Below the pieces are notes generated by a model. The model was not told the origin of the DNA. It saw only the letters and a program-made list of their open reading frames with translations, and did no database searches. From positions 5,475 to 37,537 of the forward strand of contig MGIR01000004.1 of assembly GCA_001793855.1 (NCBI GenBank): DNA of 32,063 nt. The letters run 5' to 3'. Positions 10,232-32,063 of the stretch are shown here, piece after piece (positions within the stretch are counted from its first letter, which is position 1; each line of letters starts with the position of its first letter). Source of the stretch: Candidatus Wolfebacteria bacterium RIFCSPLOWO2_01_FULL_45_19. GTDB taxonomy: Bacteria; Patescibacteriota; Minisyncoccia; UBA6257; GWB1-45-9. The position numbers and the translations under genes are program-made.

Positions 10232-12271
10232 ATGGACAAGCAAGAGGCCAAAAGACGAATGGAAAAATTGAGGCAAGAGATTGACCGTTATAGATACGCT
10301 TATCACGTTTTGAATAAGTCGCTCGTTTCCGACGCGGCACTGGACTCCTTAAAAAAGGAGCTTTTTGATTTGGAACGGCAGTTTCCGGATTTAGTAACGT
10401 TCGATTCACCGACTCAGCGTGTCGCCGGGAAACCGCTCAAAGAATTCAAGAAAGTTCACCACGAAGAACGGATGCTTTCCTTCAATGACGCTTTTTCAGA
10501 AGAAGATATGCGTGACTGGATGGGACGCGTTGAAAATTATCTCGGCAAGAAAATCAAAGATGAATTTTACTGCGAGCTAAAAATTGACGGTTTGGCGATA
10601 GAACTTGTCTATGAAAACGGCATTCTGGTTCAGGCCTCAACTCGCGGCGATGGCATAATTGGCGAAGACGCCACGCAAAACCTCAAAACAATTGAAGCTA
10701 TTCCTTTACGCATCCAGATTCCAGATTCCAGATTCCAGATTCCAAACCGCTTCGTGGTTCGTGGCGAGGTTTTCCTGACCAAAAAAGAATTTGAGCGAAT
10801 TAATAAAGAACAGAAAAAGAAAGGACTGAAACCGTATGCCAATCCGAGAAATATCGCCGCCGGCTCCGTGCGCCAGCTTGATTCAAAAATAACTGCTGGC
10901 AGGAAATTGGATTCTTTTCAATACGACGTGGTAACCATTCTTGGGCAGAAAACGCACGAGGAAGAGCACGAGCTTTTGAAAAAATCGGGATTTAAAATCA
11001 ATCCTAACAATAAGCGCGTCAAATCGCTGGAGGAGGTCTTCGAATTCCGCGATTACTGGGCTAAACACCGCGACAGATTGCCTTATGAAATAGACGGCAT
11101 AGTTGTGATTATTAACGACAATAAAGTTTTTGATGATGCCGGAGTAATCGGTAAAGCGCCGCGCGCGGCAATCGCTTACAAATTTTCGCCAAAGGAGGCA
11201 ACTACAATTATTGAAGACATCAAAGTTCAGGTTGGCCGCACCGGCGCTTTAACGCCAGTAGCCGTATTGCGCGCGGTGAGCGTCGGCGGCATTACCATTA
11301 CGCATGCCTCGCTTCATAATTATGACGAGATTAAACGGCTTGGAATAAGAATTGGAGACACCGCCATAGTCAGTCGCGCGGGCGACGTTATACCGCAGGT
11401 GACCAAAGTACTTAAGGACTTAAGAACTGGAAAAGAAAAAGAATTTCATATGTTGACGCGTTGTCCGGCTGACGGTTCCAAAGTGATCAAAGAAGGAGCG
11501 GTCCACAGATGTTCCAATAAAAATTGCGGAGCGCGCGTCCGTGAGCAGTTGTATCATTTTGTGTCGCGCGCGGCTTTTGATATCCGTGGTCTCGGCAGCA
11601 AGATTATTGACCGCCTTTTGGACGAAGGACTCATCAGCGACGCCGCGGACATTTTTACGCTAAACTCCGGTGACGTCGCGGCCCTGGAACGCTTTGGCGA
11701 AAAATCAGCGGAAAATATCGTTCGCGAAGCTGATGGGCATAAAAAAATAACCCTGCCGCGTTTTTTATACGCTTTAGGAATTCTGCACGTTGGCGAGGAA
11801 TCCGTGCGTCTGTTGGCCGAGGCGTTGCTTCGCGGCAAGTCAAAAATTAATTTGCCAGCCGACGTGTTGAAAGTTGGAAAATCGTTAACTGAAGGAGAGC
11901 TTCAAAATATTCGCGACATCGGTCCGGCTGTGGCCAAAAGTATTGTTGATTATTTTAAGGACAAACGCCATCAAGAACTTCTAAAAAAACTGGATTCAGT
12001 CGGCGTCAAAATAGAAATCCCGCGTCTAAAAGCTAAAAGCTCAAAACTTAAAACTAAAACATTCGTTTTGACCGGCGGTTTGGAATCAATGAGCCGCGAT
12101 GAGGCAAAAGAAAAAATTCGCGAACTTGGCGGAGACATTTCAGAATCGGTTAGTAAAAAAACCGACTATGTCGTGACTGGCGGCGAGCCTGGTTCGAAAT
12201 TTGAAAAGGCGAAAAAACTTGGCGTAACAACTTTGACCGAAAAGCAATTTCTTGAGATGATTCAAAAATGA
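10232..12271 (+). CDS. ligA: NAD-dependent DNA ligase LigA
   Basis: ELKIDGLAIELVY active site, NRFVVRGEVFL, OB, Zn-finger region, HhH and C-terminal BRCT (KTFVLTGGLESMSRDEAKEKI). Confidence 0.97.
   Translation: MDKQEAKRRMEKLRQEIDRYRYAYHVLNKSLVSDAALDSLKKELFDLERQFPDLVTFDSPTQRVAGKPLKEFKKVHHEERMLSFNDAFSEEDMRDWMGRVENYLGKKIKDEFYCELKIDGLAIELVYENGILVQASTRGDGIIGEDATQNLKTIEAIPLRIQIPDSRFQIPNRFVVRGEVFLTKKEFERINKEQKKKGLKPYANPRNIAAGSVRQLDSKITAGRKLDSFQYDVVTILGQKTHEEEHELLKKSGFKINPNNKRVKSLEEVFEFRDYWAKHRDRLPYEIDGIVVIINDNKVFDDAGVIGKAPRAAIAYKFSPKEATTIIEDIKVQVGRTGALTPVAVLRAVSVGGITITHASLHNYDEIKRLGIRIGDTAIVSRAGDVIPQVTKVLKDLRTGKEKEFHMLTRCPADGSKVIKEGAVHRCSNKNCGARVREQLYHFVSRAAFDIRGLGSKIIDRLLDEGLISDAADIFTLNSGDVAALERFGEKSAENIVREADGHKKITLPRFLYALGILHVGEESVRLLAEALLRGKSKINLPADVLKVGKSLTEGELQNIRDIGPAVAKSIVDYFKDKRHQELLKKLDSVGVKIEIPRLKAKSSKLKTKTFVLTGGLESMSRDEAKEKIRELGGDISESVSKKTDYVVTGGEPGSKFEKAKKLGVTTLTEKQFLEMIQK
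10714..10744. repeat. 7-bp tandem repeat (CCAGATT)x4 + CCA inside ligA
   Basis: Four perfect heptamer copies; encodes IQIPDSRFQIPN. Confidence 0.97.
12026..12060. repeat. Degenerate 7-bp-period array inside ligA linker
   Basis: CTAAAAG CTAAAAG CTCAAAA CTTAAAA CTAAAAC; encodes LKAKSSKLKTK before the BRCT domain. Confidence 0.85.
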
Positions 12272-12679: not shown

Positions 12680-14107
12680 ATGTTTACCTTACACGATCTC
12701 ACAATCAAAAAAGTCCACGATGGTTTGTTAAGCAAGGAATTTTCAGCGCTGGAGTTGGCAAAAGAATTTTTTGAATATATAGCATACAAAGACAAAGAAG
12801 TCGGCGCGTATTTAACTTTGGATAAAGACGGAGCTTACGTCATGGCGGAAAAAACCGATATCGCTATTGCCAAAGGCGAGGAAATCGGGGTGTTGTCTGG
12901 TGTTCCGCTTGCCGTGAAAGACAATATGCTTATTGAGGGTCTGCCCGCGACCGCGGCTTCAAAAATTCTAGAAAATTACCGTGCCGCGTATGACGCTACG
13001 GTTATTGAAAAATTAAAAAAAGAAAATGCGGTTTTTCTTGGCAAAACCAACTTGGACGAATTTGCTATGGGTTCTTCAACCGAGAATTCGGCGTTTGGAA
13101 TAACTAAAAATCCGCATGACCTTAAGCGTGTTCCCGGCGGTTCTTCCGGCGGTTCCGCGGCGGCAGTTGCCGCCCATATGGCCGTTGCGGCGCTTGGTTC
13201 CGATACCGGCGGCTCAATCCGCCAGCCGGCAAGCTTTTGCGGCGTTGTCGGTTTGAAGCCGACTTACGGCGCAGTTTCGCGTTACGGCTTGATTGCGCTG
13301 GCGTCCAGCTTGGACCAAATCGGTCCGCTGACCAAAACCGTTGAAGATGCGGCAATTTTGTTTAATGCCATTCGCGGAAAGGATGAAATGGATGCGACGA
13401 GCGTAGATTTGAATCTGGAATCTGGAATCTGGAATCTGGAAAAAGTTAGAAAATTAAAAATCGGTTTGCCGAAAGAATATTTTGTAGCCGGTTTGGACAA
13501 AGAGGTAGAAAAAGCTGTTCAGAACGCGATTGATTCCATCAAAAGTTTAAAAATTGAATTTAAAGAAATTTCGCTCCCGCACACCAAATACGCGCTTTCT
13601 TGTTATTACATCATTATGCCGGCGGAAGCCAGCGCGAATTTGGCGCGGTTTGACGGTATAAGATATGGCTCGCGCGCCAAAAAAGCGGAAAACCTCCCCG
13701 AACTTTATAAAAAAACGCGCGGCGAAGAATTCGGCGCGGAGGCGCGGCGCAGGATAATTTTGGGCACGTTCGTTTTATCGTCCGGATATTATGACGCGTA
13801 TTACGCTAAGGCACAGAAAGTTCGGCGGCTTATAAAAAATGATTTTGACGAAACGTTCAAGGAAGTTGACATAATTTTGACTCCAGTCGCGCCCACTCCG
13901 GCTTTCAAAATCGGCGAAAAAACAGAAGACCCGCTTTCAATGTATTTGTCCGACATTTTTACTATTCCGGTAAACCTCGCCGGCCTGCCCGCGATTTCTA
14001 TTCCGGTTAAAACTGAATTACCAGTTGGCTTCCAGCTAATCGGCAAACCCTTCTGCGAAGCCGACATATTGTCCCTCGGACAGTTTTACGAAAAAATTTC
14101 GATTTAA
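12680..14107 (+). CDS. gatA: Asp/Glu-tRNA amidotransferase subunit A
   Basis: PGGSSGGSAAAVAAHMAVAALGSDTGGSIRQPASFCGVVGLKPTYG amidase signature. Confidence 0.96.
   Translation: MFTLHDLTIKKVHDGLLSKEFSALELAKEFFEYIAYKDKEVGAYLTLDKDGAYVMAEKTDIAIAKGEEIGVLSGVPLAVKDNMLIEGLPATAASKILENYRAAYDATVIEKLKKENAVFLGKTNLDEFAMGSSTENSAFGITKNPHDLKRVPGGSSGGSAAAVAAHMAVAALGSDTGGSIRQPASFCGVVGLKPTYGAVSRYGLIALASSLDQIGPLTKTVEDAAILFNAIRGKDEMDATSVDLNLESGIWNLEKVRKLKIGLPKEYFVAGLDKEVEKAVQNAIDSIKSLKIEFKEISLPHTKYALSCYYIIMPAEASANLARFDGIRYGSRAKKAENLPELYKKTRGEEFGAEARRRIILGTFVLSSGYYDAYYAKAQKVRRLIKNDFDETFKEVDIILTPVAPTPAFKIGEKTEDPLSMYLSDIFTIPVNLAGLPAISIPVKTELPVGFQLIGKPFCEADILSLGQFYEKISI
13411..13440. repeat. 7-bp tandem repeat (AATCTGG)x4 inside gatA
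   Basis: Perfect reverse complement of the ligA (CCAGATT)x4 array; encodes NLESGIWNLE. Confidence 0.97.
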
Positions 14108-15930: not shown

Positions 15931-16509
15931 ATGATTTACGCCCTTGAAGGTAAAATTATGGCAAAAAAGTCTGGCCTGGCGATTGTGGAAGTTGGCGGAA
16001 TCTGGTTCAGAGTTTTCGTCGGAGCTGGAACGCTCGAAAGTTTACCACCTCCGGGAAGCGTGGTCAAATTATTTTCTTATCTCCGCATGCGCGAGGATGG
16101 GATTGAATTATACGGCTTTTTGAGCGAACGGGAATTAAGTTTTTTTGAGCTTCTCAATACCATAAGTGGCATAGGGCCGAAGTCGGCGTTGAATATTTTA
16201 AGCATAGCCAAAACCGAAGAGCTTTTCGCGGCGATTCGCGAAGGCCGAGCGGACCTTTTTGGCAAGGCCTCCGGAGTGGGCAAAAAAACAGCGGATCGCA
16301 TCATTCTTGAGTTGAAAAATAAAGTTGATTTTCACGAATCGGCCGAAATGGTAAAGACCATGGAGAGTGATGAAGATATTGTTGAAGCGCTTGTTGCCGT
16401 GGGATATTCGCGCGTCAAAGCGAAGGAGGCGCTTTCAAAAGTTGATGCTGGCCTGAAAGAATCCTCGGGGCGCTTTAAAGCCGCGATGGATATGCTTAAA
16501 CAACAATGA
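15931..16509 (+). CDS. ruvA: Holliday junction branch migration protein RuvA
   Basis: MIYALEGKI, LLNTISGIGPKSALNIL, ASGVGKKTADRIILELKNK, C-terminal domain EALVAVGYSRVKAKEALSKV. Confidence 0.95.
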   Translation: MIYALEGKIMAKKSGLAIVEVGGIWFRVFVGAGTLESLPPPGSVVKLFSYLRMREDGIELYGFLSERELSFFELLNTISGIGPKSALNILSIAKTEELFAAIREGRADLFGKASGVGKKTADRIILELKNKVDFHESAEMVKTMESDEDIVEALVAVGYSRVKAKEALSKVDAGLKESSGRFKAAMDMLKQQ

Positions 16510-16511
16510 GT

Positions 16512-16634
16512 CCCGTTAGAAGCCGCTTCGCTACGGAAACGTTAAATTATGAATATAAAATTTTACCATCAGACAATTAACAAGCTAGGTAACGACTTCA
16601 TCAACATAGCGAAGCGTTTCCTGCTTCTAACGGG
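16512..16634. repeat. 123-bp inverted-repeat-bounded intergenic element, copy 1
   Basis: CCCGTTAGAAGC...GCTTCTAACGGG terminal inverted repeat, second inner stem CGCTTCGCTA/TAGCGAAGCG. Homologous to 30815-30937, same length. Confidence 0.93.
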
Positions 16635-17939
16635 ATGAACGCGGAAAATTTTCTGGAACGTTTAAAAAAAAATGAACTGATCGTCGCTTTGTATCGGATG
16701 TCGTTTTTGAGGCGGGCATATCATTTTACGCTCGCTTTTTTAGGCGCTTTGGTTTATCGTTTTCCGTCCAGAAAAATTTTCGTTCTCGGTGTTACCGGCA
16801 CAAAAGGAAAATCAACGGTTTTGGAGTTGATAAGCGCCATTTTTGAAGAAGCCGGAAAAAAGACGGCGTTGCTTTCTTCGGTTCGCGTTAAAATCGGGAA
16901 AGACAGCGCCAAAAATAAATCATCCACCACTATGCCGGGCAGATTTTTCATACAGAAATTTTTACGGCGCGCCGTTGGTACCGGATGTGAATACGCGCTG
17001 ATAGAAGTTACTTCTGAGGGCATTGAGCAATTTCGCCACCGTTTCATAAGTTTTGACGCCGCGCTTGTTACCAATCTTCATCCCGAGCATGTTGAAGCGC
17101 ACGGCTCTTTTGAAAATTACAGAAACGCCAAGGTCAGTTTTTTTGAATATGTTTCGCGTTCACGCAAGAAGAAAGTGCGTTTTTTCATCAATGAAGAGGA
17201 CGCGCATAGAGATTATTTTATGGCTGTCGCGCGCGATATTGAATCGGTTGTGCTGTTTGGACGCGAACAATTTATAGAGAACGAAGTAGGCGCGCGTTAC
17301 ACGCTGAAAGCCATGGGCGATCACGGCGTCGTCGGTGATTGGCTGAGGGCGAATTTTAATCTTGAAAATGCGGCAGCCGCGGTGGCTTTCGCGCGAAGCC
17401 AAGGCATTGACTGGTCGGTTATCGCGGCGACATTCAAAAAATTCAAGGGCTTGCCTGGGCGGCTTGAATTTATACAGCACAAGCCGTTTACGGTTGTCAT
17501 TGACTACGCGCATACTCCTGATTCTTTGCGAAAGGTTTATGAGACATTGAGTAATGAAAATTCAAAGCTAATATGTGTTCTTGGCGCCGCAGGCGGAGGA
17601 AGAGATAAGTGGAAGCGTCCGGAGATGGGCAAAATAGCATCGCAATATTGTTCGGAAATTATACTCACAAACGAAGACCCATACGATGAGGTTCCGGAAA
17701 AAGTCTTGGAAGATATTGAGGGCGGTTTTCCGGGCGCGGTGAATTACAGAAAAATTATGGATAGAAAAGAGGCGATTCGCGCCGCTTTGAAATCGGTCAA
17801 AAAAGGCGATACAATTATAATTACGGGCAAGGGTAGCGAGATTTGGATGCGTGTTGCCGGTGGAAAGAAAATTCCGTGGAACGAGAAAAAAGTTGTGCTT
17901 GCCGCGTTAAAAGCTTCAAAGAAAAGGTCGCGCGTTTAA
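16635..17939 (+). CDS. MurE-like Mur ligase (UDP-N-acetylmuramyl peptide synthetase family)
   Basis: VTGTKGKSTVLELIS P-loop, LVTNLHPEHVEAHGSFENYRNAK, VIDYAHTPDSLRKVYE, LGAAGGGRDKWKRPEMGKIA. Confidence 0.88.
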   Translation: MNAENFLERLKKNELIVALYRMSFLRRAYHFTLAFLGALVYRFPSRKIFVLGVTGTKGKSTVLELISAIFEEAGKKTALLSSVRVKIGKDSAKNKSSTTMPGRFFIQKFLRRAVGTGCEYALIEVTSEGIEQFRHRFISFDAALVTNLHPEHVEAHGSFENYRNAKVSFFEYVSRSRKKKVRFFINEEDAHRDYFMAVARDIESVVLFGREQFIENEVGARYTLKAMGDHGVVGDWLRANFNLENAAAAVAFARSQGIDWSVIAATFKKFKGLPGRLEFIQHKPFTVVIDYAHTPDSLRKVYETLSNENSKLICVLGAAGGGRDKWKRPEMGKIASQYCSEIILTNEDPYDEVPEKVLEDIEGGFPGAVNYRKIMDRKEAIRAALKSVKKGDTIIITGKGSEIWMRVAGGKKIPWNEKKVVLAALKASKKRSRV

Positions 17940-27289: not shown

Positions 27290-28610
27290 AATTTCCTTTT
27301 TTGTCCTTCTGCTTTCTTTGCCGTTCGGCTACCGCCGGTTATTTCACCAATTTACATTCGGCTTTGACGAGTATGAGGCGATTTTTTTGTATGCAAGCGA
27401 TATTTTATTGATATTGTTCCTGGGTCTATTTACGGTTTTTGTTTTTAGATTCAAAGCGCAAATTTTAAATTTCAAAAACTTTTCTACTTCCCACTTCCTG
27501 CTTTTCACTTTCTTGTTTTTTGCCGCTGTTTCCATATTTCTGGCGCAATACCAGTTTTTGGCTTTGTATAATTTCGCGCGATTGTTGCTGTTGGTATTCG
27601 CCGCGCTTGCGATCGCGGCGTTAATACGAGACGAGGTCGTTAAATTGTCGCATATTTTCGGCGTTATTGCCGGTCTCGCGGTTATTCAGTCGTTTATAGG
27701 TTTTTTGCAGTTCGCGCGACAGGGGAGCTTGGGACTTTGGTTTTTGGGCGAATCGGTTTTAAGCCCATTCATCGGCGGGGCAGCCAAAATATCGGTTGCG
27801 GGAGGTGTTTTGCTCCGCGCCTATGGAACGTTTCCGCACCCGAACATTTTGGCCGCTTTCTTGTTGCTCGGTCTTCTTGCGCTGTATTATTTTTGGCTAA
27901 ATCGCTCTTACGAGCGATCGCCCGACCTAGAACGCAATGCGATCGGTTTAGGGCTAAACCCTTGGAGTGATATTATAATCGGTGTCGGCATATTTATTGT
28001 TGCTTACGGATTGATTCTTTCATTTTCACGCATCGGATGGATTGTCGCGGCTATCGGCATGATTTTGACTTTGGTTTGGACGCTATGCCAGAAAGAATAT
28101 CGCGTTCAATCCACACGCTTATTTATAATTCTATTTTCTATTTTCTGCTTTCTATTTTCTACAATTGGTTGGGCAATTTTTCCGCGAGCGAATATCGCGG
28201 CAGATGAACCGGCTGTTACTTATCGTTTATCGTACAACGAACTTGGTTTGCATTTAATAAAAGAAAATCAGCTTGGAGTTGGCGTTGGCAATCAGGTTAT
28301 TTATTCTGTGAAAAATGGCGCTTACAAAACACTCGGAATGAGCGAGGCATGGCAATGGCAGCCGATACATAACATATATCTCTTAATCGGTTCCGAAATT
28401 GGAATTTTGGGACTTTTCGTTTTTTTAGTTTTTCTCGCGCTTTCAATTTTCAAACTCGAAAATTTCATTCCCAAAATCATGCTTTTATCTTTATTAATTT
28501 TTGGTTTAGCAGATCATTTCTTTTGGACTCTTCAGCCCGGACGATTGATGTTGTGGGCAGTGGTTGGTATAGTGTTGGGATTAACAAGCGATAGGCGCGA
28601 GTCCTCGTAG
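27267..28610 (+). CDS. O-antigen ligase/Wzy-like polytopic membrane protein
   Basis: Multi-TM, LLRAYGTFPHPNILAAFLLLGLLALYYF, ILSFSRIGWIVAAIGMIL, ENQLGVGVGNQ, PIHNIYLLIGSEIGILGLFVF. TTG start. Confidence 0.8.
   Translation: MILQKLVKISFFVLLLSLPFGYRRLFHQFTFGFDEYEAIFLYASDILLILFLGLFTVFVFRFKAQILNFKNFSTSHFLLFTFLFFAAVSIFLAQYQFLALYNFARLLLLVFAALAIAALIRDEVVKLSHIFGVIAGLAVIQSFIGFLQFARQGSLGLWFLGESVLSPFIGGAAKISVAGGVLLRAYGTFPHPNILAAFLLLGLLALYYFWLNRSYERSPDLERNAIGLGLNPWSDIIIGVGIFIVAYGLILSFSRIGWIVAAIGMILTLVWTLCQKEYRVQSTRLFIILFSIFCFLFSTIGWAIFPRANIAADEPAVTYRLSYNELGLHLIKENQLGVGVGNQVIYSVKNGAYKTLGMSEAWQWQPIHNIYLLIGSEIGILGLFVFLVFLALSIFKLENFIPKIMLLSLLIFGLADHFFWTLQPGRLMLWAVVGIVLGLTSDRRESS
27460..27515. repeat. Degenerate 7-bp-period array inside O-antigen-ligase-like ORF
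   Basis: AAATTTT AAATTTC AAAAACT TTTCTAC TTCCCAC TTCCTGC TTTTCAC TTTCTTG. Confidence 0.6.
28131..28165. repeat. 7-bp-period array inside O-antigen-ligase-like ORF
   Basis: CTATTTT CTATTTT CTGCTTT CTATTTT CTACAAT. Confidence 0.85.
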
Positions 28611-28675
28611 TTTAATGGATAGAACATCGGCCTCCGAAGCCGGGAATGGCAGTTCGAATCTGCCCGAGGGCACCA
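28601..28675 (+). tRNA. tRNA-Arg (anticodon CCG), CCA encoded
   Basis: Cloverleaf: GTCCTCG/CGAGGGC acceptor, TCGGC-CTCCGAA-GCCGG anticodon arm, GGCAG-TTCGAAT-CTGCC T-arm, A discriminator + CCA. Confidence 0.95.
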
Positions 28676-28716
28676 ATAAAATAAATAGGACAGACGTCTG
28701 TCCTATTTATTTTATT
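28675..28716. repeat. Perfect 42-bp palindrome abutting tRNA-Arg 3' end
   Basis: AATAAAATAAATAGGACAGAC|GTCTGTCCTATTTATTTTATT. Confidence 0.97.
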
Positions 28717-28751
28717 GTGCGCAGATTCGAACTGGGAAGGGGGTCGGGGAA

Positions 28752-28848
28752 ACGGGAGTTTTCCCGTGACGGAGTCCACGAACCGAAGGGTTCGTGAGCG
28801 CAGTCCCGCTTTTGGCGGGACGAGCAGTGAGATTCTGCCCGAGGGCAC
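28752..28848. other. Cluster of strong stem-loops ending in a copy of the tRNA 3' end
   Basis: ACGGGA/TCCCGT, CACGAACC/GGTTCGTG, GTCCCGC/GCGGGAC, then TCTGCCCGAGGGCAC (28834-28848), identical to tRNA nt 28659-28673. Confidence 0.8.
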
Positions 28849-28940
28849 AATGCAAATGGCAGGATTGATTTTTTGATCTTCTTTGTACTATAGTATAGGT
28901 ACGTTTTTTGAGAATTTGTTATTAGCTTGGAGGGTGCGCA

Positions 28941-29911: not shown

Positions 29912-30463
29912 ATGAGTAAGTTTGAAGAACTCAACAAATTGGAATTGGAAATGGCGGCGGATAAAACTTTGCCGCTTGTTGCCAACCTTGTTTTCGGAGA
30001 AGGAAATCCGGATTGTGAAGTTATGTTTATCGGCGAGGCGCCTGGCTATCACGAAGACCTGGAGAAACGCCCTTTCGTCGGCCGGGGCGGCCAGCTTTTA
30101 AATCGGGCGCTGGAGAGTATCGGCTGGAAGCGTGAAGATGTTTATATAACCAACATCGTGAAGCGCCGTCCTCCGGAGAATCGTGACCCGTTGCCGGAGG
30201 AGATTGAGGCTTATAAATTCTATCTCGCGAAGCAGGTTGAAATAATAGACCCGAAACTGATTGTCGCCTTGGGCCGATTCGCTACGAACTCTTTTTTGCC
30301 AACCGCGAAAATTACCCGAGATCAAGGCAAGGTATTCAAACTCGGCGGGCGTTTAATCGTGCCGGTGCTTCATCCCGCGGCGGCTTTGCGCGGAACAGGA
30401 GCGATGAATCAATTTTTGGATAGTTTTAAAAAACTGCCCATTATAGTGAAACGTGAGTTATAA
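29912..30463 (+). CDS. Family 4-like uracil-DNA glycosylase lacking Fe-S cysteines
   Basis: LVFGEGNPDCEVMFIGEAPGYHEDLEKRPFVGRGGQLL, NIVKRRPPENRDPLPEEI, VPVLHPAAALRG. Confidence 0.88.
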   Translation: MSKFEELNKLELEMAADKTLPLVANLVFGEGNPDCEVMFIGEAPGYHEDLEKRPFVGRGGQLLNRALESIGWKREDVYITNIVKRRPPENRDPLPEEIEAYKFYLAKQVEIIDPKLIVALGRFATNSFLPTAKITRDQGKVFKLGGRLIVPVLHPAAALRGTGAMNQFLDSFKKLPIIVKREL

Positions 30464-30470
30464 TAAGCTT

Positions 30471-30812
30471 ATGAGCTTCGCCTTGATTTATATAGTTGTG
30501 AGAGCGTTTTATAGTTTTGTTAAATTTTGGCGGCATTGGTATGTTGAAAGTTTTACGATTATCGCGCGTATGGCAATGAATGTTCTGGAGAAGCTTGACC
30601 GTGTATTCGCGGTAAGAATAAATTTCCGTTTTCTTCTTCAGCCGCTCTATCAGGATTATACCGTCGTCGGTCGCGTTATCGGTCCAATATTTCGTTTGAT
30701 TCGGGTTATTGTCGGTTCGTTGATTTATTCCGTGACTGTTGTTGCCGCGGCGATTTTTTATATCGTTTGGGCTTTGTTGCCGGTTTTTATTATTTATAGA
30801 GCTTTAACATGA
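30471..30812 (+). CDS. Small membrane protein, two TM segments, unknown function
   Basis: MSFALIYIVVRAFYSFVKFWRHWYVESF...; start reassigned from 30453 to 30471, where TATAAT is 6 nt upstream. Confidence 0.6.
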   Translation: MSFALIYIVVRAFYSFVKFWRHWYVESFTIIARMAMNVLEKLDRVFAVRINFRFLLQPLYQDYTVVGRVIGPIFRLIRVIVGSLIYSVTVVAAAIFYIVWALLPVFIIYRALT

Positions 30813-30814
30813 AT

Positions 30815-30937
30815 CCCGTTAGAAGCCGCTTCGCTGCGGAAACTACAAATAAGCAACATGATATTTAGCAATAAACAATTAACCAAAGCAGATTATGACT
30901 TCGCCAGCACAGCGAAGCGTTTCCTGTTTCTAACGGG
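30815..30937. repeat. 123-bp inverted-repeat-bounded intergenic element, copy 2
   Basis: Same ends and length as 16512-16634; interior diverged. Confidence 0.93.
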
Positions 30938-32063
30938 ATGAAGCATGAAAATTTAAATATTTATTACAGAGACCCAAGGATGGATATGACCATCGGGGGA
31001 AGATTTTTGGTTCGCGCTTCAAGCTATCTTGGTTATGGACTTTTGACCGCATTAACCGCGTCTTTCTTTATTTCGGACATAACAGCTTTGCGTTGGCTCG
31101 GTGTTTTTTTCGCGCTGTTTCTTATTCATGAAATATATCATCGCGGCGACGCGGACCGCTCTTTAAAAAATATAAAATCCGAAGCGGAAATTAACGTTAA
31201 AAATTATTTATGTCCATCCGCGTGGTCTGTGATTGGATACGCTTTTGACCGCGCGCTTTTGGGCGGGGGAGATTTCTACTTGCTAGCGCTTAGGTCGCTC
31301 TTATCAAAAAGCGAGGTTCGTTCCGCTTTTTTAAAACTTGAAATCAAACCGGATGAAGTGGAGCAAAAACTGGAGGATTATATTAAAGAGAGTGTTAAAA
31401 ATACGACGTCAAAGGCTGGAATTAAAAAAAACGCCGAAGAACTTGTTTTATCGGCGTTTCGGCAGGCGATGTCAACCGATGACCGTTTCGTAAAACCTTA
31501 TCATTTGGTAGGGGCTTTTAGTTCGGCGAAAAACGATTATGTTTCGCGTTTATTTGGCGTTTTCGGCATACAGCCGTCAGATCTTAAATACGCCATAATT
31601 TTTAGCCGTTTTTATTCAAGATTTTCTTTAATTCGTAATCTTCCGAGAGAACTTGGTGGATTTGTTCACGGACCGGGAAAAATAAGGCACCGCGTAATGA
31701 ATCGCGCCTGGACAGCTCGGCCGACGTCGACTTTAGACCGCTACAGCGTTGACTTCACCGATTTGGCAAGAAGCGAAAAGGTAGGTTTTCTTATAGGCCA
31801 TGAAAAAGAATTTGACCGGCTTGTGAACGTATTGTCCCGCCTCTCAAAGCCCAACGCTTTATTAATAGGAGAGCCAGGAAGCGGGAACGAAACAATCGTT
31901 TCGCATCTTGCTTATCGGATAACCAAAGACGACGTGCCACCGCAGCTTTTTGACAAACGGTTGGTGTCTTTGCAAATAGGAAGTTTGGTGGCCGGAGCAA
32001 AAACCGGCGAACTTCAAGACAGGGTTAGGCGAATAATTGATGAAATACTAGCCACAGGAAACA
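30938..32063 (+). CDS. Membrane-anchored Clp (ClpA/B/C)-like AAA+ protein, 3' truncated by window end
   Basis: Open to window end (absent from ORF track). N-terminal TM region, Clp-N-like helical region, LDRYSVDFTDLARSEKVGFLIGHEKEFDRLVNVLSRLSKPNALLIGEPGSGNETIVSHLAYRI...LVAGAKTGELQDRVRRIIDEI. Confidence 0.82.
   Translation, partial: MKHENLNIYYRDPRMDMTIGGRFLVRASSYLGYGLLTALTASFFISDITALRWLGVFFALFLIHEIYHRGDADRSLKNIKSEAEINVKNYLCPSAWSVIGYAFDRALLGGGDFYLLALRSLLSKSEVRSAFLKLEIKPDEVEQKLEDYIKESVKNTTSKAGIKKNAEELVLSAFRQAMSTDDRFVKPYHLVGAFSSAKNDYVSRLFGVFGIQPSDLKYAIIFSRFYSRFSLIRNLPRELGGFVHGPGKIRHRVMNRAWTARPTSTLDRYSVDFTDLARSEKVGFLIGHEKEFDRLVNVLSRLSKPNALLIGEPGSGNETIVSHLAYRITKDDVPPQLFDKRLVSLQIGSLVAGAKTGELQDRVRRIIDEILATGN

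Follow-up and report, generated by a model that had tools for sequence, protein, structure and literature searches.

What are the two near-identical repeats that occupy gene junctions in this DNA, and is the pairing of their ends a property of RNA or of DNA? The whole stretch analysed (the window; 32,063 nucleotides, G000:C4:5475-37537, from a 588.8-kb genome in 10 contigs) carries two repeats of 123 bp apiece, at 16512-16634 and 30815-30937, which a preliminary description had singled out for their paired, near-identical ends. Both are indeed present, and an unguided repeat search returned them as the strongest direct repeat in the window (16506-16651 and 30809-30954; 146 nt, 75%). Minimum-energy prediction also returns the proposed nested fold for each copy, whether treated as RNA or as single-stranded DNA, with z values of -3.3 to -5.6 against dinucleotide shuffles. 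The limits had to be redrawn: the 123 bp stand as a core, and the full element is one base longer at each end, with a flanking duplication of 4-5 bp. The added terminal bases are complementary to each other, T-A in 121/149 elements and C-G in 26/149. Each window copy sits exactly between an upstream stop codon and a downstream start codon, both at ATGA stop/start overlaps, as the following features show.

16511-16635 (+): element copy 1, which adds a terminal T16511 and A16635 to the core 16512-16634; A16635 is also the first base of the downstream ATG
16507-16510 (+): left target duplication of copy 1, TGAG, containing the ruvA stop TGA at 16507-16509
16636-16639 (+): TGAA, right-hand duplicate of the target at copy 1, contributing to the rebuilt start codon
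16512-16523 (+): left outer arm of copy 1, CCCGTTAGAAGC, partner of 16623-16634
16623-16634 (+): right outer arm of copy 1, GCTTCTAACGGG
16524-16533 (+): left inner arm of copy 1, CGCTTCGCTA, partner of 16607-16616, with a right-side bulge TTTCCT at 16617-16622
16607-16616 (+): right inner arm of copy 1, TAGCGAAGCG
16506-16580 (+): relay ORF 1 of copy 1, beginning at the old ATG, MSPVRSRFATETLNYEYKILPSDN and stop
16549-16638 (+): relay ORF 2 of copy 1, overlapping ORF 1, its stop TGA overlapping the rebuilt ATG, MNIKFYHQTINKLGNDFINIAKRFLLLTG and stop
15931-16509 (+): gene upstream of copy 1, ruvA (Pfam RuvA_N, RuvA_C)
16635-17939 (+): gene downstream of copy 1, a Mur ligase (Mur_ligase_M, Mur_ligase_C) beginning at the rebuilt ATG
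30814-30938 (+): element copy 2, which adds a terminal T30814 and A30938 to the core 30815-30937
30810-30813 (+): left target duplication of copy 2, TGAA, containing the upstream stop codon
30939-30942 (+): TGAA, right-hand duplicate of the target at copy 2, contributing to the rebuilt start codon
30809-30868 (+): relay ORF 1 of copy 2, MNPVRSRFAAETTNKQHDI and stop
30858-30941 (+): relay ORF 2 of copy 2, its stop overlapping the rebuilt ATG, MIFSNKQLTKADYDFASTAKRFLFLTG and stop
30453-30812 (+): ORF upstream of copy 2, 119 aa, no Pfam match
30938-32063 (+): ORF downstream of copy 2, beginning at the rebuilt ATG and extending past the window end, no Pfam match

The flanking duplication is identical on the two sides of copy 2 and identical at 3/4 positions in copy 1. 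The window holds other repeats as well. Beside a tRNA gene (28601-28672) lies a perfect 22-bp inverted repeat with no spacer (28674-28717; CAATAAAATAAATAGGACAGAC and its complement), a 42-bp repeat (28641-28682 and 28816-28857) takes in the 3' end of the tRNA, and a (TTCCAGA)n tandem repeat occurs at 10713-10745 and 13408-13440, in opposite orientations, within ORFs of 679 aa (10232-12271) and 475 aa (12680-14107).

The two copies are members of a dispersed family, YCCCGTTAGANNN...NNNTCTAACGGGR. Most of its elements measure about 66-127 bp, and they end in YCCCGTTAGA and TCTAACGGGR. The 21-nt end motif, with at most one mismatch, has six copies in the source genome and none when the pattern is reversed; the genome also contains CCCGTTAGA elements from other subfamilies. 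One copy lies directly before what we take to be the rpsS start, after an rplB-like ORF, and another directly before what is presumably rpmI, after an infC-like ORF, all named by reading the translations; at the rpsS starts seen in genomes G057 and G123 the element is absent. The pattern CCCGTTAGA-N85..115-TCTAACGGG was found in 45/149 genomes of the same order and in 21/384 genomes sampled across the phylum, with zero matches to the reversed pattern in either set. In a scan of named genomes, the matches listed were mainly from Parcubacteria-type MAGs, and also from Kazan, Berkelbacteria, Saccharibacteria, Levybacteria, Omnitrophota and a few others; three genomes (G012, G087 and G123) have dozens of end motifs each.

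Among the elements compared, the outer 9 bp are near-invariant, an invariance partly imposed by the search pattern, and the next 3 bp and the inner stem or hairpin differ by subfamily (CGCTTCGC, CGCGATCG, CGCGGACG, CGCGTACG, GGTCGTC hairpins, AAAATTAA). In almost all of the 122-149 elements, a set first assembled partly by pattern search and in which related copies recur, about 12 bp of the terminal inverted repeats (TIRs) are complementary; the elements contain no transposase gene. The same ends with duplications also occur outside Patescibacteria, in Omnitrophota MAGs (L230, L232, L243, L253, L258, L266, L274, L279, L302) and Deltaproteobacteria MAGs (L233, L236), often with a TAAA/TTTA target and C-G ends; these copies may reflect either horizontal transfer, shared ancestry or misbinning. 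An open-access literature search with the end motif and with Patescibacteria MITE/REP returned no description of a CCCGTTAGA element family, which is apparently undescribed so far.

Similar ends occur in a different setting, as tRNA genes inside tRNA genes (L171, G273:C2:123827-124226; L086:14172-14356; L048:1463-1640; L050, minus strand, about 1649-1460). Here CCCGTTAGA...TCTAACGGGG(G)CARG ends flank a complete tRNA gene, and they in turn interrupt the anticodon loop of another tRNA, which has kept the pairing of its stems; at L171 the tRNA is nested twice, and a Spirochaetia MAG (L269) may hold a further case. Such loci could be defunct duplicates, or they could represent a tRNA intron of a new kind. 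In genome G273, intact Lys and Glu tRNAs are present, and Ala(TGC), Ile(GAT) and Asn(GTT) were not found.

The flanks of the elements show that they are mobile. Exact 4-mers are duplicated on both sides of 70/122 elements, against 14.4 expected from shuffled pairs, and exact 5-mers around 11, against 0.7 expected; in an independent set from named genomes the 4-mer count is 61/88 against 10.4. The duplicated target is TNNA, 4 (sometimes 5) bp long, mostly TGAA/TTCA and TGGA/TCCA. At locus L051 a C-G element is nested in the right arm of another, and rejoining the flanks at TCTA restores the standard arm. Neighbours in tandem have one ATGAAT in common, and three genomes hold copies 98-99% identical to each other. 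Loci L001:1501-1659, L005:1357-1521, L078:755-1099 and L051:1392-1617 hold composite elements, formed when one subfamily inserted into another or the two recombined, and tandem arrays with a central ATGAAT in common.

Taken with three features described below, namely a start-codon niche in which ATG is rebuilt, a reading path through the element and covariation of the arms at the DNA level, the TNNA duplication makes it likely that these are mobile DNA elements of a MITE-like, non-autonomous type. Insertion would be carried out in trans by an enzyme that makes staggered cuts, and ribosomes coming from the old ATG or the upstream gene would be handed to the rebuilt ATG through short coupled ORFs. 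TIRs on a short element without a transposase gene, a 4-5 bp target duplication and multiple dispersed copies are all MITE features; the assignment stays incomplete in that a search for an autonomous partner, which is part of the definition, found none. No long copy with the same ends was seen in the roughly 2.5 Mb scanned, including about 90% of G057, and end pairs 0.2-8 kb apart were rejected as single long elements, being neighbouring or nested short ones. The earlier statement that no transposase is recognisable holds and extends to related genomes.

A narrower version of the MITE-like reading names the mobiliser: the elements would be classical MITEs derived from a DDE insertion sequence, with an autonomous parent that has been lost, is rare or resides elsewhere. 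The TIRs, the 4-5 bp duplication and the copy number all fit. Nevertheless, the DDE families considered as mobilisers (PF01609, PF12762, PF00665) are mostly absent from element-bearing genomes (DDE_Tnp_1 in 1/18, IS1595-type in 1/16, rve in 4/16), and no long end pair in the roughly 2.5 Mb scanned has a matching duplication. Phage and plasmid records gave no element matches, and viral carriage was rejected, three viral-contig matches being unrelated and without target duplication. The terminal base, moreover, covaries as T-A or C-G, which is unusual for an end read by a single transposase. We therefore regard a DDE parent as possible, if somewhat doubtful.

The terminal base pair also separates the elements by location. 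A start codon followed by at least 60 open codons lies exactly at the right end of 91/122 elements; the corresponding share is 1% for random positions and 31% for ATGRR sites. When both sets are pooled, a gene ATG is found at the right end of 143/173 T...A-ended elements (83%) and of 0/58 C...G-ended ones. T...A elements lie at start codons because the terminal A and the duplicated TG rebuild ATG: ATGAA becomes ATGAA-T[element]A-TGAA, and the left copy retains the old ATG, plus the upstream stop at ATGA overlaps. Orientation relative to the gene is biased 55:6, and the native orientation tends to read through. Occupied sites have a Shine-Dalgarno sequence in 3% of cases against 19% in the background, and an abutting upstream ORF in 58% against 24%, the background being the noisy one of first ATGs of long ORFs. 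At its right end the element reads TCTAACGGGATGA, which places a stop at the ATG or within 4 nt of it in two of the frames and leaves the remaining one open. With such a layout, the start codons of closely spaced genes poor in Shine-Dalgarno sequences would be a niche where insertions are tolerated.

Inside the element, reading tends to be kept open between the old and the new ATG. From the old (left) ATG, the reading frame of 31/76 elements runs without a stop almost as far as the new one, falling short by a few bases at most, and 15 more reach it through a second overlapping ORF, as both window copies do, the second stop overlapping the rebuilt ATG. Together, 46/76 have an open or relayed path, against 17.2 +/- 3.2 (maximum 28) in dinucleotide shuffles of the interior and 11 when the element is reversed. 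The excess persists with relatives down-weighted (29.8/47 clusters against 11.6 +/- 2.7) and in the independent set (21/34 against 10.1 +/- 2.4 shuffled). By the criterion used, 30/76 elements have no such path, some of them because a 5-bp duplication brings the TIR stop TAG in frame (MKSR and stop), and the relay is a tendency, no rule. A conserved encoded peptide was ruled out, substitutions being equal across the three codon positions in a 103-bp family; since the peptides are not conserved, the constraint looks like one of continuity, not product.

These features could be pushed further, to a new class of mobile DNA specialised for start codons, which would be moved as folded DNA by an unrecognised enzyme, end in the base that rebuilds ATG, and, through a selected ribosome relay, take seats between essential ribosomal-protein genes without silencing them. 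We advance this only tentatively and rate it as rather improbable. Active targeting of start codons by the insertion machinery, in place of survival of the insertions that land there, we consider unlikely. The share of T-A elements at starts is high even though TNNA sites are common in spacers, as targeting would predict, but C-G elements, which have TNNA targets of the same sort, are never at start codons, and the biases in orientation and reading path point to survival after insertion.

The source genome itself suggests another mobiliser, as it carries two RAYT/Y1 transposase genes (L007, G000:C7:855-4088, and L008, G000:C1:13543-16761), with short palindromes of their own both within the coding sequence and at the ends of the gene (TAACGTAGTCGGACTACGTTA; TTAGGGCTTCGCAAGCCCTAA) that are unlike the CCCGTTAGA element. 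If the family were REPIN-like and moved by a RAYT (Y1, IS200-like) transposase, the two genes would be expected companions, and RAYT/Y1_Tnp (PF01797) is indeed enriched in element-positive genomes of the order (19/45 against 20/104 element-negative ones; odds ratio 3.1, p = 0.005, not phylogeny-corrected). This reading is nevertheless very unlikely. PF01797 is absent from 26/45 element-positive genomes, including G057 with its 99%-identical copies, the RAYT loci bear other palindromes, and at none of the 15 RAYT loci examined does the element occur as a flanking pair. The ends, YCCCGTTAGA / TCTAACGGGR, contain no GTAG or CGTC tag. Transposition of single-stranded DNA by HUH enzymes leaves no target duplication, whereas the elements have one. 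We accordingly rejected RAYT as mobiliser, its association being weak and the protein not required.

Returning to the MITE-like element, the pairing of its ends is a family-wide property. Across 43 distinct elements, 91.4% of the cells in the 21-pair structure are paired, against 81.1% after shuffling and 33-43% with slid partners. Cells changed on both sides number 111, against 37.5 +/- 7.5 shuffled, and the covariation score is 0.317 against 0.132 shuffled, with every slid control at or below 0.11. Further copies and covariation, the two points on which the preliminary description had staked its claim of maintained pairing, were thus both found, and the claim was not refuted. The single exchange that it had offered as compensatory, A16533-T16607 for G30836-C30910, does not carry this weight: in two other copies from the same genome (C4:43k and C2:53k) A stands opposite C, unpaired, so that the pair alone proves nothing and the family-wide counts do.

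Pairing in RNA tolerates G-U and not A-C. On the gene-sense strand, departures of the two kinds are about equally frequent (17 G-U to 15 A-C; 4 to 4 in the independent set), which argues for a constraint on DNA, not mRNA. The pairing is best read, from these substitution patterns, as a property of inverted-repeat ends, read as a duplex or folded as a single strand. A single-stranded DNA fold is possible, and double-stranded terminal inverted repeats with arm-to-arm templating would give the same pattern. In the stem subfamilies the right-arm bulge repeats part of the inner stem (ATC-GCG-ATC, ACC-GCG-ACC, TCC-GCG-TCC), so that the two ends can also pair in an alternative way that excludes the first. 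A structured RNA, either a cis-regulator or a small RNA, with a selected fold and spread as a regulatory module at gene starts, would account for the strong covariation, the low folding energy and the location at starts of co-directional genes, but it is highly improbable given the equal sense-strand departures, the lack of any Rfam match in either scan, the duplications and nesting that mark mobility, and the C-G class, which is never at starts and pairs equally well. The preliminary description, which had noted correctly that no known RNA family is recognisable and had proposed a structure maintained in RNA or single-stranded DNA, was thus right on pairing and most likely wrong on RNA, the single-stranded alternative being the part that may stand.

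Several known repeats resemble this MITE-like family. ERIC, RUP and Correia-type repeats are intergenic and duplicate TA. Like them, the CCCGTTAGA elements are inverted-repeat elements of about 100-150 bp co-transcribed with genes; unlike them, they duplicate TNNA and abut start codons (ERIC and RUP-type intergenic repeats are covered in PMC10969869). The prokaryotic MITEs QMITE1 and QMITE2 of Coxiella, 150-400 bp long (PMC5896051; review PMC10969869), share the short inverted-repeat form without transposase, flanking direct repeats, multiple copies, overlap with gene ends and internal short ORFs. The CCCGTTAGA elements differ in being smaller, rebuilding ATG and keeping a reading relay, in that the T-A or C-G end base predicts start-codon location, and in that no autonomous parent was found. 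Rickettsia palindromic elements (PMC10969869, PMC3733652), which lie in frame inside ORFs and have a CGTC end, are likewise palindromes of about 100-150 bp, from a bacterium with a reduced genome that tolerates them within coding sequence or next to it. Ours lie at start codons, with a target duplication and without the CGTC tag, and in-frame location inside ORFs was not found, T-A elements being at starts (143/173) and C-G elements outside them. With the REP/REPIN sequences associated with RAYT (PMC3733652, PMC3116915, PMC2817692) they have in common imperfect palindromes, covarying stems, many copies per genome and a presumed movement in trans; they differ in having no GTAG/CGTC tag and a target duplication, and RAYT is absent from many element-rich genomes. 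The novelty is the start-codon niche and the reading relay within a MITE-like type.

The missing mobiliser is a concrete enzyme to seek. Annotated gene starts are probably misplaced by these elements, because N-terminal MNPVR.../...LTG peptides can be element sequence. If the MITE-like reading is true, an abundant mobile family would live in streamlined genomes with almost no spacer DNA, and would show how DNA inserted within operons can do next to no harm.
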